From positions 248,001 to 312,000 of the forward strand of contig NC_009465.1 in NCBI RefSeq assembly GCF_000010405.1: DNA of 64,000 bases, in the 5' to 3' direction. Made by a program: the position numbers and the translations under genes. Positions within the stretch are counted from its first letter, which is position 1. Each line of letters opens with the position of its first letter. The notes under the pieces are model-generated. The model worked only from the letters and a program-made list of their open reading frames with translations, did not search any database and was not told the DNA's origin. This document shows, one piece after another, positions 32,007 through 56,960 of the stretch. This DNA comes from Candidatus Vesicomyosocius okutanii (GTDB taxonomy: Bacteria; Pseudomonadota; Gammaproteobacteria; PS1; Pseudothioglobaceae).

Positions 32007-33791
32007 ATGCCATTTATTAACGCAGATTTTAAAGATGATCTACCTAATCGTGTAAATATTGTTGACATAATTAATCAACGTGTGCCACTCAAAAAGGCGG
32101 GTAAAGATTACAAAGCATGTTGCCCATTTCATCATGAAAAAACTCCATCATTTATTGTCTCAGCTGAGAAACAAATGTACAAATGTTTTGGTTGTGGAGA
32201 TGGTAATGGCGTGATTAAATTTGTTATGAAGTTTGATAATCTGGGTTTAGTTGAGGCGGTAGAGACCATTGCTAGCGAATCAGGTATTAGTGTAGTGTAT
32301 GATAAGAATATCAAACCGATAGATACAAGATTAACTCGTTATTTAGATTTAATGCAACGAGTTGGCCAGTTTTATATTCAGCAATTAAAGCAATCTCTTG
32401 CAAAAAATAAGGCGGTTGGTTATGTCAAATATAGAGGTATTAGCAGTCAAATTGCCAAGCGTTTTGAGTTGGGTTTTGCACCACCCAATAGTAATTTACT
32501 ATTTGGATTTAAACAAGATTCTCAAGATATTGCTGATTTAAAAGTGATGGGATTGTTATGTGATGATCAATATCGTTCAGGAAAATATTATGATCTTTTT
32601 AAAGATCGTATTATGTTTCCTATTCATAATAATAAAGGTAATATTATTGCTTTTGGTGGTCGGTCGTGTAATAACAACTTTAAGGCAAAATATTTCAATT
32701 CACCTGAAACGCCTATTTTTTCAAAATCAAAAGAACTTTATGGTTTGTATCATATGCGTAAATATTCACGTTCAATTGATTATATTTTAGTAGTAGAGGG
32801 TTATATGGATGTGGTCTCTCTTCATCAAGCGGGCATATCACAAGTAGTTGCTACTTTAGGTACAGTAACTACGGTAGAGCATTTAAATATTCTATTTCGC
32901 ACAACAAATACTATTATTTTTTGTTTTGATGGTGATAAGGCAGGGGAGAAAGCTGCTTGGCGAGCATTAAATATTACTTTACCAGTGATTAAGGCAGGTA
33001 TAACTATTAAATTTTTATTTTTGCCAGATAAAGAAGATCCAGATACTTTAGTTAAAAAAGAATCAAGCCAAGCGTTTGTAAAACGTATTGAGAATGCACA
33101 ATTTTTGAGTAAATTTTTATTTAGCCATATTAAGACAGAAGTAGATTTTAACACGATTGAAGGAAAAACCTTATTTTTAGAAAGAGTATCAATGTTACTT
33201 AGAAAAATAAATTATAAAACTTACCAACATCAGTTGTTAGAAGGTTTGGCAGGTGAAGTTAATCAAAGTATTGAACAAATTGAATCTATATTAGAGCGAC
33301 AAGATATATCCACTCAATCTAATACATTTAGCATATCGAAAAATTATGAAGAACCACCTATGTTTAATTTTTATGATAGTGATGAAAAGTATCAAGTACC
33401 AATGTCAGTTCCCTTAATAAGTAATAACTCATTAATAGATCAAATGATTGGTTTATTGTTAAATTATCCTTCCATGGTTGATAAAACGGTAATGTTAAGG
33501 GTGAGAAAAATTAATAATGCAGATATATTGCAAAAGTTAGCTAATTTGGTTTTGTTACAAGAAGATATTACTTTGGAGACTATGGTAGAACAATTTCCCC
33601 AGAAAAAACAACAATTGCTTAATTTATATAATAAAAAAAGAGTTTTGAAAAATTATGATTATAAGGATGAATTTTTGGATGCTTTGCTAAAGATTGAGGA
33701 AAGACAAAAAGAGAAAAGCGCTTTATTAATTACAAATGAAATAGAATATACAAAAAATTTACAAGCAAGAAAAGGCAAACCTAAAAGTTAG
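32007..33791 (+). CDS. dnaG: DNA primase
   Basis: Synthesises RNA primers at the replication fork. The 594 residues show the CHC2 zinc ribbon (C39, H42, C60, C63), the RNA-polymerase basic motif region, the TOPRIM acidic residues in V-V-E-G-Y-M-D-V and F-D-G-D-K-A-G, and a C-terminal DnaB-interacting helical domain that is divergent. The classical neighbours rpsU and rpoD are absent at this locus. Confidence 0.95.
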   Translation: MPFINADFKDDLPNRVNIVDIINQRVPLKKAGKDYKACCPFHHEKTPSFIVSAEKQMYKCFGCGDGNGVIKFVMKFDNLGLVEAVETIASESGISVVYDKNIKPIDTRLTRYLDLMQRVGQFYIQQLKQSLAKNKAVGYVKYRGISSQIAKRFELGFAPPNSNLLFGFKQDSQDIADLKVMGLLCDDQYRSGKYYDLFKDRIMFPIHNNKGNIIAFGGRSCNNNFKAKYFNSPETPIFSKSKELYGLYHMRKYSRSIDYILVVEGYMDVVSLHQAGISQVVATLGTVTTVEHLNILFRTTNTIIFCFDGDKAGEKAAWRALNITLPVIKAGITIKFLFLPDKEDPDTLVKKESSQAFVKRIENAQFLSKFLFSHIKTEVDFNTIEGKTLFLERVSMLLRKINYKTYQHQLLEGLAGEVNQSIEQIESILERQDISTQSNTFSISKNYEEPPMFNFYDSDEKYQVPMSVPLISNNSLIDQMIGLLLNYPSMVDKTVMLRVRKINNADILQKLANLVLLQEDITLETMVEQFPQKKQQLLNLYNKKRVLKNYDYKDEFLDALLKIEERQKEKSALLITNEIEYTKNLQARKGKPKS

Positions 33792-34019
33792 TTTTTTATG
33801 TTTAATTTGATTTAGTCGTCATTGATTAAAATATATTCTATTTCCTCTTTAAATAATATATTTGGGATTTTTAACAGTTATAAAAACACTAAAAAATACT
33901 TAACTAAACCTTGTCTGTGCTAATAATTTTGTACCTATACTAGTATTAATTTTTTTTAAAATAGTCGATATTTTTTCTCTCATAATAATAGTTCTATTTA
34001 TTTTTTATGTGGTTGTATT

Positions 34020-45499: not shown

Positions 45500-46585
45500 T
45501 TAATGTATTTTAATTGATGCTAAACCAATCAGTACTAAGATTAAAGTAACTATCCAAAAACGCACAATAATTTTTGGTTCAGAGATATTTTGTTTCTCAA
45601 AGTGGTGGTGAAGTGGTGTCATTAGGAAAATGCGCTTTTTATATAGTTTGTAGTAGCCTACTTGAATAATCACGGATAAGGTTTCTGCTACAAACACCCC
45701 TCCCATAATAAATAGTAAAATTTCTTGGCGAATCAGAATGGCAATTACTGCTAAAATTGCACCTAAAGATAATGATCCTACATCACCCATAAATATTTCA
45801 GCAGGATAAGCATTAAACCATAAAAATCCCAAGCTTGAACCAATAAGCGCTGCACAAATAATAAATAATTCGTTAATACCTGTTATATACGGCATATTAA
45901 GGTAATTTGAGAAGTTATAATTACCACTAAAATAAGCAAAAATAGCTAATGCACCTGATATGAGTATAACTGACATAATGGCAAGTCCGTCTAAACCATC
46001 AGTTAAATTAACCGCATTAGAACTTCCAACAATGACAAAATATGATAATATCAAAAAATCAAAAACACTTAACGGTAATATTATATCATTAAAAAATGGG
46101 ATGAGCAATTGGGGTTGAGTAGTTTTTTGAGAAATTAATATTATCCAAGTGCTAATTACAATAGCACTTAATGATTGAGTTAAAAATTTTATTGAAGAAC
46201 TTAATCCATTTGATGATTTATGTTTTATTTTAAGATAATCATCCGTAAAGCCAATTGCGCTAAATATGATAGAAGTTACAATAATAATCCATAGATAGAT
46301 ATTAGACCAATCGCCCCAAATTAAAATACTCACTATAAATGCAAATAAAATTAATATACCACCCATGGTTGGTGTACCTACTTTGATTAAATGTGATTTA
46401 GGACCATCAGTCCTAATTACTTGGTTAATATGGCATTGTTGTAATCTTTTAATAAAAATACGACCCAACATAAGACCAATAAACAACGCACTTAGCATGG
46501 CTAGTAAAGCCCTAATAGTTAAGTAGTTTAAGACGTTAAATTTGGTATCAAACTGAGTAATAAAGTTGATTAATTCTAAAAACAT
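45500..46585 (-). CDS. mraY: Phospho-N-acetylmuramoyl-pentapeptide-transferase
   Basis: Integral membrane enzyme making lipid I in peptidoglycan synthesis. It has 361 residues with about ten hydrophobic segments. Catalytic aspartates are in G-F-T-D-D-Y-L-K near residue 116 and N-L-T-D-G-L-D-G-L near residue 193, and the third conserved region M-T-P-L-H-H-H-F-E is near residue 323. In other gammaproteobacteria it lies between murF and murD; neither flanks it here. It heads the mraY-deaminase-prfC operon. Confidence 0.97.
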
Positions 46586-52046: not shown

Positions 52047-53366
52047 ATGAGAAGAAGAAGAAAATTAGAGCATAAAACTTATAAGTTAAATATAGAGTCA
52101 TTTTCTCATGAAGGGAGAGGGATTGCACATTTTGAAGATAAAATAATTTTTGTGAGTGATGCGTTACCGGGTGAATTAGTGATTGCTAATCGTACATTTT
52201 CATGTGCAAAATTTGAAGAGGCTGATGCTAAAGAAATATTAAAACCAGCAGACAATAGAATGAAACCAAAATGTGATGTATTTGGTATTTGTGGTGGTTG
52301 TTCATTTCAGAACTTATCTAGTGAAGACCAAATACAAATTAAAAGTAGATGGCTAAAAAAGGTATTTGCCAGACAGGCTAAAGTTGAGCCGGAAACTTGG
52401 CTAAAATCTCTTCAATTTCAAAGTTGGGGTTATCGTCGTAAAGCTAGATTAGGTATTCGATATGTGGCTAAGAAAGACAAGGTATTGATTGGGTTTAGAG
52501 AAAGAAAATCTTCATTTATCACTAATATGAGTCGTTGTGAAGTGTTGCATCCATCAATAGGGGAACATCTTGAAGTGCTTGCTAATTGTATTGAAAGACT
52601 TAGTATTAAATCTAGTATCCCGCAATTTGAAGTGGTAATTTCTGAGAGTGGTATAGCACTTATTTTAAGACATCTTGAATCTTTGAGCGTAAAAGATGAA
52701 AAAATATTAGCAGATTGTGCTCAAGAATTGAACATTACTTTTTATACTCAAAGTGGTGGTTTAGATAGTGTTAAGCCATTAGATGAACCTACTATACTAA
52801 CGTATTCACATTCTAATTATAATATTATTATGGAATTTTTACCCACTGATTTTGTTCAAGTAAACTTTAAACTTAACCAACAAATGGTTAGTCTAGCAGT
52901 AGAATTACTTGAACTTAATGAATCTGATAAGGTGATTGATTTATTCTGCGGTTTGGGTAATTTCACTTTGCCAATTGCAAGATATGCTAAATATGTAGTG
53001 GGTATTGAAGGTGATTTAGGATTGGTTGAAAGAGCAAAGTATAATGCTGAAAAAAATAGTATTAATAATGTTGACTTTTATAGGTCAGATCTATGTAAAG
53101 AAGTGGTAGGTTTTGAATGGTTTAAAGGAAAGACTTATAATAAAGCATTGATTGATCCATCTAGATCTGGTGCAATTGAAATTGTAGAATTGCTGCCTAA
53201 ATTAGGCGTAACAAGATTGGTATATGTATCATGTAATCCTGCAACTTTAGCTCGTGATACGCTTAAGTTAATTAAACTTGGTTTTACGCTTGAAACAGCA
53301 GGAGTCATAGATATGTTCCCTCAAACTTCTCATGTGGAATCTATTGCTTTATTTGTTAAACGATAA
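52047..53366 (+). CDS. rlmD: 23S rRNA (uracil-1939-C5)-methyltransferase
   Basis: Iron-sulfur RNA methyltransferase acting on U1939. It has 439 residues: an N-terminal TRAM domain, then cluster cysteines C76, C82, C85 and C164, then a Rossmann domain with D-L-F-C-G-L-G-N-F-T-L near residue 300. The catalytic cysteine is in Y-V-S-C-N-P-A-T-L-A-R-D near residue 394, with the P-S-R-S-G-A block before it. It follows glcF by 25 bases and may be read from the same promoter. relA, its frequent neighbour, is not here. Confidence 0.95.
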   Translation: MRRRRKLEHKTYKLNIESFSHEGRGIAHFEDKIIFVSDALPGELVIANRTFSCAKFEEADAKEILKPADNRMKPKCDVFGICGGCSFQNLSSEDQIQIKSRWLKKVFARQAKVEPETWLKSLQFQSWGYRRKARLGIRYVAKKDKVLIGFRERKSSFITNMSRCEVLHPSIGEHLEVLANCIERLSIKSSIPQFEVVISESGIALILRHLESLSVKDEKILADCAQELNITFYTQSGGLDSVKPLDEPTILTYSHSNYNIIMEFLPTDFVQVNFKLNQQMVSLAVELLELNESDKVIDLFCGLGNFTLPIARYAKYVVGIEGDLGLVERAKYNAEKNSINNVDFYRSDLCKEVVGFEWFKGKTYNKALIDPSRSGAIEIVELLPKLGVTRLVYVSCNPATLARDTLKLIKLGFTLETAGVIDMFPQTSHVESIALFVKR

Positions 53367-53799
53367 ACATTAATATTAACATTCAAATTTTTGATTATTG
53401 CTAAAATAATGTCTTGTATAAATCTTGCTATATTTTAATTTTAATCAACGGTATGATAGAGGTTTAAGTCGTCAATTGGACGATTTAAAATTAGTGAAAA
53501 TATCAATAATAATGAAAACTGGGAATTATACTTATTACTAGAATACGAATAGGTAAAATTTATTTAAAATAATCATTTAATAAACAAACTAGTAGAGACT
53601 GGATATTAATTTGAATTTAATAGTTTGATAATTCTGATTGGGAGTTTTAATAAGAATGAATTTTTTGTCTCTATAAAATATTTTATTGGTGAGAAAGATT
53701 ACAGTTTAGAGTGTGAAATTATTTTAATTTGTTACGGCAGCAATTATTGTTAAAATATTTAATTGAGTTGACTTTTGCCAGTAAATAATAGGTCTATGA
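53367..53799. other. Spacer after rlmD, probably including the eroded 5' part of nagZ
   Basis: No open frame. An 11-bp hairpin (arms at 53463-53473 and 53479-53489, one G-T pair) follows the rlmD stop by about 100 bases. Fragments near 53640-53710 faintly recall the NagZ N terminus (L-I-G-S-F-N-K-N-x-F-V-S-I-K), but the match is too weak to set a boundary. Confidence 0.4.
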
Positions 53800-54214
53800 A
53801 TGATTTATTATGAGATATGAAACTCTTAAAGAGTAAGTTAATTATGGACTTGATTAACTTATACTTACTTATGTTGTTTATACTTAAATAGATGATAAGC
53901 CCGCATGGTTTTCAGTTAAATGAATTAAGTAGATTCTACATAACTATTTGAAGTGTGTAGATGTTATTTTTAGTGATGATTCTTCTATGAAAGGTGTATA
54001 CTTTATTCAAGATATACTTGATATAGTAAAAACATTATTGGACAGTGGTTGTGATTTAGTGTTTATATGTAATGATTTAGAATTGGTTATGTAAATTATT
54101 GATAAAAATTGGTGCATGAGTGAAAAATTACAATCAATGTAAGGTTTTTATAAATTTAAACCTGATAAAATAAAATATTAGAAAAATTTAGCAACTATTA
54201 GAGATTTATTATGA
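53800..54214 (+). pseudogene. nagZ: nagZ (beta-N-acetylhexosaminidase) remnant, C-terminal part
   Basis: One frame read from about 53813 to TGA at 54212-54214 spells NagZ-like sequence through eight internal stops (at 53834, 53855, 53885, 53921, 53930, 54092, 54140, 54179). Matches include T-Y-V-V-Y-T-stop-I-D-D-K-P-A-W-F-S (family A-H-V-I-Y...D..P-A.FS), then V-D-V-I-F-S-D-D-S-S-M-K-G (family GVIFSDDLSMEG), then L-L-D-S-G-C-D-L-V-F-I-C-N. The frame is otherwise unbroken over 400 bases, so decay is recent. NagZ acts in peptidoglycan recycling. The stop overlaps the next gene's ATG. Confidence 0.82.
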
Positions 54215-54492
54215 ATAATGATAACAAACAAAGGTTTGAAATTAGGTTTTTAGCTGTAGTTAGAAAAACCCTCATTGCTGTTGCTAAAGATACTATTACT
54301 CGGCCAGGATTGAAACATCCGCTTAGTAAAGTAACACAAGAAATGATAACTGATTGTTTAGATATTGTAACTAGCAGACAAATTGCTATTGAAAAATCCT
54401 CAGGCATTCATACTAATATGAAACCGGTTTATACCGATAAGCAAACGGTGCAAAGTTTCTCAATTGATGATTTAAAGAAAACCTTAAATTAA
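54211..54492 (+). CDS. Conserved-looking hypothetical protein, formerly coupled to nagZ
   Basis: Unrecognised 93-residue protein. It is soluble, basic in the first half (R-F-E-I-R-F-L-A-V-V-R-K-T-L near residue 8), predicted helical, with no cysteine pair beyond C51 and no membrane segment. It begins in an ATGA overlap with the dead nagZ frame. It still has no stop codon or obvious damage although its upstream partner is a pseudogene, which suggests it is under selection for its own function. Confidence 0.6.
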   Translation: MNNDNKQRFEIRFLAVVRKTLIAVAKDTITRPGLKHPLSKVTQEMITDCLDIVTSRQIAIEKSSGIHTNMKPVYTDKQTVQSFSIDDLKKTLN

Positions 54493-54806
54493 GCAGTTTA
54501 TTTTGGTAAATTTATATAGGTTTTGGTTTTATTAAATCGCAAAATTTTATTCAAATAAATAGAAAGGATCTATGCTATAATTAACTAATAAGTTTCTACT
54601 TTATTGTTATTGATTTATCATTATTTTTTGATTTTTTATATGATAGAACGGTATAGGCTAGATAAAGATGGTATTAATTTATCCATATTCTAACTACCTT
54701 AAGGAGGTATCTAATTCTATAATAATAATTCAATTTTTTTGTTGGTTGGGTTTATCTTTACATGAGTATTAAGAAAGTTAGTAGTGTAACAAGGTGAGCT
54801 ATTCAG
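54493..54806. other. Non-coding spacer between convergent genes
   Basis: About 314 AT-rich bases between the unknown gene and uvrD. No frame, tRNA or clear terminator is seen. An AAGGAGGT string at 54702-54709 resembles a ribosome-binding site, but no start codon with a frame follows, so it may be a relic of a lost small gene. Confidence 0.45.
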
Positions 54807-56960
54807 CTATATAAATTCTAAATTTGCATAAGAACTAATCAACCATTTTATACTGCCTGCTTGTTTAAATTTTATCTGTATTCTAGAACTATCCCCTTGT
54901 CCTTCAAAATTTAATACTGTTCCTAATCCGAATTTAGGGTGGTTGACTAAAGCACCAATATGTAATTGATTATCAGATTTAGGTGTAATGCTTTGATTAA
55001 AAATATTATTATTATTGTAATTTTTTATTGTTATATCAAATTTAACTTTAATTTTATTTAAATATTCATCTGGAATCTCATTTAGGAAACGTGAAGGATC
55101 AGCGTACAAAAAATGTCCGTGTAAAAATCGTTTCATGGTGTAAGATAGTGACAGTTTTTTCATGGCACGGGTCATGCCAACGTAGCATAATCGTCTTTCT
55201 TCATCTATTAAATGTGGTTTATTTTTGCTTTGCCTGTAGGGGGATAAACCTTCTTCCATGCCGCTTAAGAATACATAAGGAAATTCTAACCCTTTGGCTG
55301 AATGCATAGTCATAAGTTGTACATTTTGATTAGTAAGTGTATTAGTATTACCCCCAGAATCTATTGATGCTAAAGAAATAAATCCTATTATTTCATTCAT
55401 ATCATTGTTCTGTTTATATTGTTTAGCCGCAGTTATTAATTCTTCTAGATTTTCTTTTTTGTTGCTAGTTTTATCATTAGAATAATGCGCCATTAATCCT
55501 GACATATTAAGTAAGTTTACTATTTTTTCAGATAAATTTAAGTTTTTTGTATCATCTTTCATTTTCTCAATTAGGTTGGTAAATCCATTTAATGCATTAG
55601 TAGTACGAGTTGACAGTGTAGATGATACTTGTATGGTTGCTTGAAAAAGACTGACATGGTTATTTTGTGCAAATATACGTATTTTGTTAATTGTTGTATT
55701 TCCAATACCACGAGTTGGAAAATTAACCACACGTTCAAAGGCAAGATTATCATCTGAGTTTTCTATCAAACGTAAATAACTTAAAGCGTGTTTAATTTCA
55801 GCACGTTCAAAAAATTTTAAACCACCATAAATAATATAAGGAATATTGTATTTTATGAGAACCTCTTCAAAGATACGAGATTGGGTATTAAGGCGATACA
55901 GAATAGCACAATCATTGGGTAATACGCCATTAGTGATTAATTTCTGAATACTACTGACGACATAGTCTGCTTCGTCTATTTCAGTTTGCGCCTCATACAT
56001 ATCAATTAATTCACCATCGATAGCATTAGTCCAAAGAGATTTACCCATGCGACTGGTATTATGAGCAATCAAGGCGTTAGAAGCTGTTAGAATATTATTT
56101 GTTGAACGATAATTTTGTTCTAAACGGATGGTTTTAATGGGAACAAAATCTGTGCATAATTTAGTAATATTCTCAATATTTGCACCGCGCCAGCCATAAA
56201 TAGATTGGTCATCATCGCCCACACAGAATACTTTATTATTGCCACTAAATAATAATTTAATCCATTTGTATTGGATCATATTAGTGTCTTGAAATTCATC
56301 AATTAAAATGTGCTTAAAGCGATTTTTATAATGGTTAAGTAAGTTTACGTTATTTTTTAATAACTCATAACTACGTATCAACAGTTCTGCAAAATCAATC
56401 AATTCATTTGTTTTGCAGTGTACTTCATAAAGCTCAAATACTTTAAGACTTTTTTTAATAAAATAGTTGTAACTAGAGTCAATATCATGTAAGTGAATAC
56501 CTTTATTTTTTTGATTGTTAATAAACTGCTGAACCTTTTTAATAGGAAACTTAGATTCATCTATATTATTTTCTTTCATTAGGTTTTTGATAATGCGGAA
56601 TTGGTCTTGTGCATCTAGGATTTGAAAGTTATAAGTTAATTGAGCTTGTTCATAATGAGTGCGTAATAATCGGTGTGCCAAACTATGAAATGTTCCAGTC
56701 CACATACTTGTAATAGGATGCCTTAATAGCTTACTTAATCTTTCACACATTTCAGTAGCGGCTTTATTGGTAAAAGTAACGGCTAGAATAGCATCAATGT
56801 GAATATCTTTTTGTGTGATTAAGTAGGCAATTCTATGTATGAGAACTTTGGTTTTACCACTTCCAGCACCTGCTAGTATTAAAGCGTTTTTTTCATTATT
56901 TAGTGTAACTGATTGGCATTGTTTGTCATTTAGACCATTTGTTATTTCAGATAAATTCAT
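54807..56960 (-). CDS. uvrD: DNA helicase II UvrD
   Basis: Superfamily 1A 3'-5' helicase for excision and mismatch repair. It has 717 residues, matching UvrD (720), rather than Rep. Motifs: L-N-D-K-Q (Q motif), A-G-A-G-S-G-K-T-K (I), V-T-F-T-N-K-A-A (Ia), D-E-F-Q-D-T-N (II), G-D-D-D-Q-S-I-Y-G-W-R-G-A (III), L-E-Q-N-Y-R-S (IV), M-T-M-H-S-A-K-G-L-E-F (V) and Y-V-G-M-T-R-A (VI). The Tudor-like C terminus with H-P-K-F-G-L-G-T-V is present. Confidence 0.95.
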   Translation of the reverse strand: MNLSEITNGLNDKQCQSVTLNNEKNALILAGAGSGKTKVLIHRIAYLITQKDIHIDAILAVTFTNKAATEMCERLSKLLRHPITSMWTGTFHSLAHRLLRTHYEQAQLTYNFQILDAQDQFRIIKNLMKENNIDESKFPIKKVQQFINNQKNKGIHLHDIDSSYNYFIKKSLKVFELYEVHCKTNELIDFAELLIRSYELLKNNVNLLNHYKNRFKHILIDEFQDTNMIQYKWIKLLFSGNNKVFCVGDDDQSIYGWRGANIENITKLCTDFVPIKTIRLEQNYRSTNNILTASNALIAHNTSRMGKSLWTNAIDGELIDMYEAQTEIDEADYVVSSIQKLITNGVLPNDCAILYRLNTQSRIFEEVLIKYNIPYIIYGGLKFFERAEIKHALSYLRLIENSDDNLAFERVVNFPTRGIGNTTINKIRIFAQNNHVSLFQATIQVSSTLSTRTTNALNGFTNLIEKMKDDTKNLNLSEKIVNLLNMSGLMAHYSNDKTSNKKENLEELITAAKQYKQNNDMNEIIGFISLASIDSGGNTNTLTNQNVQLMTMHSAKGLEFPYVFLSGMEEGLSPYRQSKNKPHLIDEERRLCYVGMTRAMKKLSLSYTMKRFLHGHFLYADPSRFLNEIPDEYLNKIKVKFDITIKNYNNNNIFNQSITPKSDNQLHIGALVNHPKFGLGTVLNFEGQGDSSRIQIKFKQAGSIKWLISSYANLEFI

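Follow-up and report, generated by a model that had tools for sequence, protein, structure and literature searches.

The closest described counterpart of the locus analysed here is the peptidoglycan-recycling route of Gammaproteobacteria that uses AmpG and NagZ. Its peptide branch needs an L,D-carboxypeptidase, which produces the tripeptide for reuse by Mpl. According to excerpts of PMC8649774, ElsL of Acinetobacter baumannii, a cytoplasmic YkuD L,D-carboxypeptidase, has been shown to do this tripeptide-making job. The lineage and the process considered here are those of the reductive evolution of vesicomyid symbionts, as described in excerpts of PMC3202245, PMC5310779, PMC2642828 and PMC7826175. 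In the excerpted parts of these accounts, the symbionts may be able to do without peptidoglycan synthesis (PMC2642828) or build no cell wall (PMC7826175). An excerpt of PMC8406291 lists Candidatus Vesicomyosocius okutanii as PG-intermediate, with most lipid II genes, SEDS/class B PBP and no class A PBP; recycling is absent from the main text of that paper (term count 0). In a library without most subscription papers, we found no paper that joined Vesicomyosocius with nagZ or vesicomyid with muropeptide, and Vesicomyosocius had no mention among the matches listed for ampG, peptidoglycan recycling, AnmK or ElsL. Here we set the loss of recycling apart from the loss of wall synthesis, two things that published accounts of these symbionts had not separated.

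The V. okutanii genome is a single contig of 1,022,154 bases, and the window, that is, the whole stretch of DNA analysed, covers 64,000 nucleotides of it (248001-312000). From the end of an rlmD-like gene (53366) to the start of a 93-codon gene termed p93 (54211) there is a gap of 844 bases with 23% G+C. We are highly confident that the stretch between 53366 and 54211 is what remains of an operon for peptidoglycan recycling; the wider loss appears to have taken two steps, and p93 was probably kept for a separate job. The features of this region are as follows.

52047..53366, plus strand: intact ORF of 439 aa, which we take to be an rlmD-like 23S rRNA methyltransferase gene; upstream border of the collapsed stretch
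53369..53608, plus strand: ykuD remnant (ElsL-like L,D-carboxypeptidase), codons 4-87 of 153; tblastn E 7.8e-12, and alignment
53649..53744, plus strand: remnant of a rhodanese-domain gene, about codons 56-90 of 137; tblastn E 1.2e-7
53775..53827, plus strand: nagZ remnant in another frame, residues about 182-199; tblastn E 4.6e-4 against four broken gaps, and alignment
53828..54214, plus strand: nagZ remnant, residues 200-327 and the stop, a single frame with eight internal stops
54184..54210, plus strand: last 27 bases of the dead nagZ, which in the broken clade have changed less than the rest; candidate translation start region for p93
54211..54492, plus strand: p93, intact 93-codon ORF and former last gene of the operon; present in 12 of 12 genus genomes
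54807..56960, minus strand: intact ORF, presumably a UvrD-like helicase gene (uvrD paralog); convergent downstream neighbour, also downstream in most relatives

The rlmD-like gene occupies the same place in most relatives; it was not found in the fetched stretch of G002 and is a 40-residue piece in G007. The scraps within the 844 bases were located by tblastn with the proteins of G003. Nine stops interrupt the ykuD remnant, which has lost its 3' part by deletion, the HG...SKGC stretch included. Using the G003 protein, ampG was not found in the 844 bases; the lone tblastn match, on the other strand with an E-value of 0.31, is meaningless.

The initial annotation had described a nagZ caught mid-decay, legible in a single frame through eight stops. 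Indeed, in the frame of the TGA at 54212-54214, NagZ residues 200-326 match 53828-54208 gap-free at 60% identity, with E 1.8e-45 in a tblastn limited to the four broken gaps. Furthermore, the fragment matches positions 202-285 of the Pfam GH3 N-terminal domain PF00933 with an E-value of 2.2e-9 across the whole genome, which rules out a chance frame. As it is the sole GH3 match in the V. okutanii genome, an intact nagZ elsewhere, which the annotation had named among the findings that would refute it, is ruled out as well. The in-frame stops within 53828-54208 lie at 53834, 53855, 53885, 53921, 53930, 54092, 54140 and 54179; compared with the codons of most relatives, four of the eight stand at CAA/CAG and one at TGG. 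Against the intact consensus (eight rows, one of which, G010, is out of register owing to a one-codon insertion), the remnant shows 86 differences over 126 codons; C>T accounts for 29 of them and G>A for 16. These 45 changes fit the proposed C-to-T and G-to-A events, and the shift from AHV to TYV is seen. The suggestion that no frameshift is visible holds from about 53828 onward but fails upstream, where residues 182-200 are in another frame. The frame changes near 53828 because of a one-base deletion near 53822, which marks the end of the 53775-53827 frame; a ninth stop lies upstream of this deletion at 53801. Sequence of nagZ 5' of residue 182 or so was not found in the gap, the remnant beginning near 53775. 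Lacking residues 1 to about 181 and interrupted by a frameshift and eight internal stops, the fragment offers no full nagZ open frame and is, judged by its sequence, a nagZ pseudogene and not a nagZ.

In syntenic relatives, full-length nagZ followed by the 93-codon gene is present, as had been expected. The full order, as in G003, is rlmD - YkuD (153 aa) - rhodanese (137) - AmpG (433) - NagZ (327) - p93, with gene ends that overlap or abut; family scans of the G003 proteins returned YkuD, rhodanese, AmpG above the TIGR00901 cut-off and NagZ above the NF003740 cut-off. A GH3 search gave matches in 35 of 40 genomes, V. okutanii included in the 40. Within the genus, nagZ is intact in 8 of the 12 genomes, and broken pieces alone occur in V. 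okutanii, G004, G005 and G008, all of about 1.0 Mb. AmpG, Amidase_2 (AmpD-type) and AnmK are each present in 8/12 genus genomes, the same eight that have intact nagZ, and this linkage of the importer with cytoplasmic processing enzymes is confined to the relatives; none of the three was found in the four broken-nagZ genomes in the search of the 12. The genes adjoining rlmD in the relatives are thus a peptidoglycan-recycling operon, linked and co-inherited. The intact relatives agree with NagZ/AmpG recycling in having AmpG and NagZ above their cut-offs together with Amidase_2 and AnmK, whereas in V. okutanii ampG, Amidase_2 and anmK were not found and nagZ is a pseudogene. The loss of peptidoglycan recycling proposed earlier is upheld by the absence of these genes alongside the broken nagZ; as far as gene content tells, it is real and clade-wide. 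The dying gene was identified correctly as nagZ, but the collapse took in four genes (ykuD, rhodanese, ampG and nagZ), of which nagZ forms just the 3' end.

Among the named loci that bear p93, nagZ sequence lies directly upstream in 36 of 38 (two of the 36 broken); L101 starts 66 bases before p93 and is hence uninformative on this point. L099, from G015, has rlmD, rhodanese and p93 and gave no match to ykuD, ampG or nagZ; the G015 genome, 86% complete, has no GH3 match. This is a second, separate loss. Not all eight congeners with intact nagZ keep the whole operon, since ykuD is broken in five of them and the rhodanese frame of G009 has two stops.

Gap alignment revealed a deletion from about codon 94 of ykuD to about codon 49 of the rhodanese gene that is common to V. 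okutanii, G004 and G008; in G005 the site has been lost. The one-base deletion in nagZ is likewise common to V. okutanii, G004 and G008, with G005 excluded from the frameshift inference for its many other broken genes. In G004, G005 and G008, ampG codon ~31 is joined to nagZ codon ~43; a further deletion removed the site of this junction from V. okutanii, which, as a member of the clade, would have shared it. V. okutanii, G004, G005 and G008 form one clade with a support of 100/100, in a tree that rests on two genes, rlmD (found in 12 of 14 loci) and the uvrD paralog (10 of 14), and in which four rows are under half filled. Since the lesions are common to this four-genome clade, the operon was already broken in their ancestor. 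This ancestral inactivation goes against a gene caught mid-decay and supports the reading of the stretch as an old relic. In the common ancestor of the four, nagZ was broken by loss of a single base, and a larger deletion took the 3' part of ykuD along with the beginning of the rhodanese gene. AT-biased point changes added stops, and the V. okutanii lineage later lost the part from rhodanese codon ~90 to nagZ codon ~182 too. Decay by point changes is therefore only part of the history: C>T and G>A changes are seen, but large deletions and a frameshift were also involved. The process is ordinary reductive evolution, i.e., normal genome shrinkage.

A recent decay of nagZ alone by point mutations, with p93 as a recycling partner about to follow, would accord with the recognisable protein motifs and the many C>T/G>A changes, yet we regard it as scarcely credible. 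It is already contradicted by the shared lesions: the deletions are common to the clade, and neighbouring and unlinked recycling genes are lost. Furthermore, p93 is constrained like other retained genes (see below), and L099 keeps p93 with no match to ykuD, ampG or nagZ. We thus hold to an old relic. As a separate observation, G005 (the Pext_18_S21 symbiont; L056 and L112) contains broken frames that match glcD, glcF, mreC, PBP2, mraY and a SEDS protein, some of them named by eye; these may reflect assembly indels or sequencing errors, or lost wall synthesis in that lineage.

The living relatives also bear on the order of loss. Eight genomes have ampG, nagZ and p93 intact. Of these, three (G003, G007 and G009) carry ykuD as one uninterrupted frame, and in the other five (G001, G002, G006, G010 and G011) it is broken. 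mpl is intact in the same three and broken or fragmentary in the same five, all still with nagZ, although the summed pieces of the G006 mpl still reach the model cut-off; other hits of the Mpl model were read, from length and place, as its relatives MurC, MurD, MurE and MurF. Among unrelated genomes, this 8/8 agreement would be expected once in 56 by chance, and the eight are related. Neither gene is intact in the four broken genomes, in which Mpl had no match of its own (12 genus genomes searched). G001 and G010 are sisters in the tree, and G006, with both genes broken, is joined to G009, with both intact, at 85/92; at least one joint ykuD/mpl loss therefore seems separate from that of G001/G010. 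The joint fate fits the pathway chemistry, because the product of the L,D-carboxypeptidase is the tripeptide for Mpl, and it speaks for the YkuD protein having a role of the ElsL type. The YkuD protein of an intact relative contains the YkuD domain PF03734, and its best NCBIfam model is ElsL NF040925 (E 1.3e-47), at a score of 161.6, below the cut-off of 270. LdcA-family proteins gave no match in any of the 12 genus genomes. As far as the excerpts of PMC8649774 go, the relatives' YkuD resembles ElsL in that it is 153 aa long and starts straight into the domain, sits with ampG-nagZ where LdcA was not found, and has a fate tied to mpl; it differs in that the predicted protein scores below the ElsL cut-off and the gene is dead in V. 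okutanii.

Taken from these living relatives, the loss appears to have been two-step, peptide reuse going before import and sugar processing. In step one, the peptide-reuse branch, i.e., the ElsL-like YkuD with Mpl, would have been lost; in step two, import and sugar processing by AmpG, NagZ, AmpD and AnmK would have followed. With AmpG, NagZ, AmpD, AnmK, YkuD and Mpl gone, wall fragments would not be reusable by that route. The clam symbionts and their close relatives thus offer a natural experiment in three stages: full recycling, import and sugar genes only, and none.

Two features within the window concern wall synthesis.

33791-33955, minus strand: weak traces of a second PBP, judged from context to be FtsI, best piece 25 residues, 68% identity, E 1e-4; intact in relatives
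45506-46474, minus strand: intact mraY, over its cut-off, in a frame of 367 aa

The mraY gene, for a step of the lipid-linked wall precursor, is thus retained, and about 7 kb separate it from where the recycling operon was lost. In V. okutanii, open frames read as MurC, MurB, Ddl, MurD, MurE and MurF (assigned by eye except where the Mpl model hit the ligases). One SEDS protein is intact, and so is PBP2, which is over its NCBIfam cut-off and adjoins frames that read as MreB, MreC and MreD. The relatives' second PBP was read as FtsI from sub-cut-off model matches and its position, and their second SEDS protein was not found in V. okutanii. Precursor synthesis and an elongation-type set of MreBCD, SEDS and PBP2 remain, and wall synthesis is, in terms of predicted genes, not lost. 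In the lipid II, SEDS and class B PBP genes that the search covered, these hits fit the PG-intermediate group as given in the excerpts of PMC8406291. In contrast to the excerpted statements of PMC2642828 and PMC7826175, the synthesis genes in V. okutanii speak against such a complete absence.

The loss might have a consequence for the host, either because leaking anhydro-muropeptides act on the clam as a signal or because low turnover provokes little immunity. The importer was not found and an SLT-domain protein remains; moreover, an excerpt of PMC7826175 reports few PGRP genes in the host genome. However, the sole SLT-domain frame found in V. okutanii has 205 aa (G000:C1:654348-654701), and the longer SLT protein of relatives (about 524 aa; 521-525 aa), intact in G004, was not found in V. 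okutanii, so release may be small. We consider such a leak, or a muted immune response, unlikely, and keep to genome shrinkage as the process.

The small uncharacterised gene p93 stands out as having outlived the pathway of its operon. As first reported, the final TGA of the nagZ remnant overlaps the ATG at 54211 of this intact 93-codon gene. The claim of a preserved start-stop coupling does not follow. The TGA/ATG overlap persists because it is made of p93's own ATG and the A of its Asn-2 codon, and being p93's own start it gives no evidence on coupling. Summed over the four broken genomes, the 27 bases upstream, 54184..54210, show 10 differences, where the mean for a 27-base window is 25.8; of the 214 overlapping windows, 5 are as low. 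In the eight intact genomes the count is again 10, with a mean of 16.8 and 27 windows as low. The comparison used an alignment, and the genomes are related. This pattern suggests that a putative translation start signal of p93 is kept in the last ~27 bases of the dead nagZ. A promoter for p93 inside the relic gave no signal, 12 promoter-like sites being found on both strands of 53300-54600 versus 10.1 expected from shuffling (sd 3.2).

The p93 frame is open in all 12 genus genomes, and the gene is present in 21 of 25 family genomes, V. okutanii included; it was not found in the other four (G012, G018, G019 and G022), three of which are 98-99% complete. Of 15 genomes searched from other families, 3 have matches, at 32-34% identity. 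Median dN/dS values in the broken clade (6 pairs each) are 0.186 for p93, 0.218 for rlmD and 0.228 for the uvrD paralog; those in the intact group are 0.067 (15 pairs), 0.134 (15) and 0.113 (10), respectively. The p93 set comprises 10 of the 12 genomes, with G001 and G002 left out. By these estimates, p93 is under purifying selection and constrained about like other kept genes. A drifting leftover not yet inactivated is a very improbable account of p93. Its dN/dS rises from the intact group to the broken clade, in relative terms the most of the three genes, and its absence from 4/25 family genomes indicates that it can be lost; however, rlmD and the uvrD paralog rise as well, and the frame is open throughout the genus. 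We rather propose that purifying selection would have kept p93 as its job is separate from recycling.

V. okutanii p93 has no Pfam or NCBIfam match, and 24 p93 members gave scattered weak family matches only, the best at E 0.0034 in 3 members. The best PDB profile among solved structures reached E 0.059. An AlphaFold model shows two long helices and a weak tail (mean pLDDT 74), with no fold match at E 0.001. These Pfam, NCBIfam, PDB profile and fold searches rule out p93 as a member of a known family. The three distant homologs have neighbour genes that, read by eye, share no common context. A role of p93 outside recycling is most likely. One possibility, which we view with some doubt, is that p93 works in peptidoglycan metabolism, for instance in regulating wall synthesis, and was kept as synthesis still runs. 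The retained elongation-type synthesis genes and the position of p93 directly after nagZ sequence in 36/38 named loci are in its favour; nevertheless, the distant homologs in three other families sit on contigs other than those of nagZ, G015 has p93 without nagZ and G019 nagZ without p93, and p93 has no family or fold match. It is equally tentative that p93 is a small helical SUP05/Thioglobaceae protein with an unrecognised role, envelope or growth related, that outlives its operon's pathway in a 1-Mb genome and was kept again in L099/G015. An important role of this kind is counted against by the absence of p93 from 4/25 family genomes, three of them nearly complete. At L062 and L064 (G009 and G011), extra DNA with aldehyde dehydrogenase-like pieces, named by eye, lies between p93 and the uvrD paralog.
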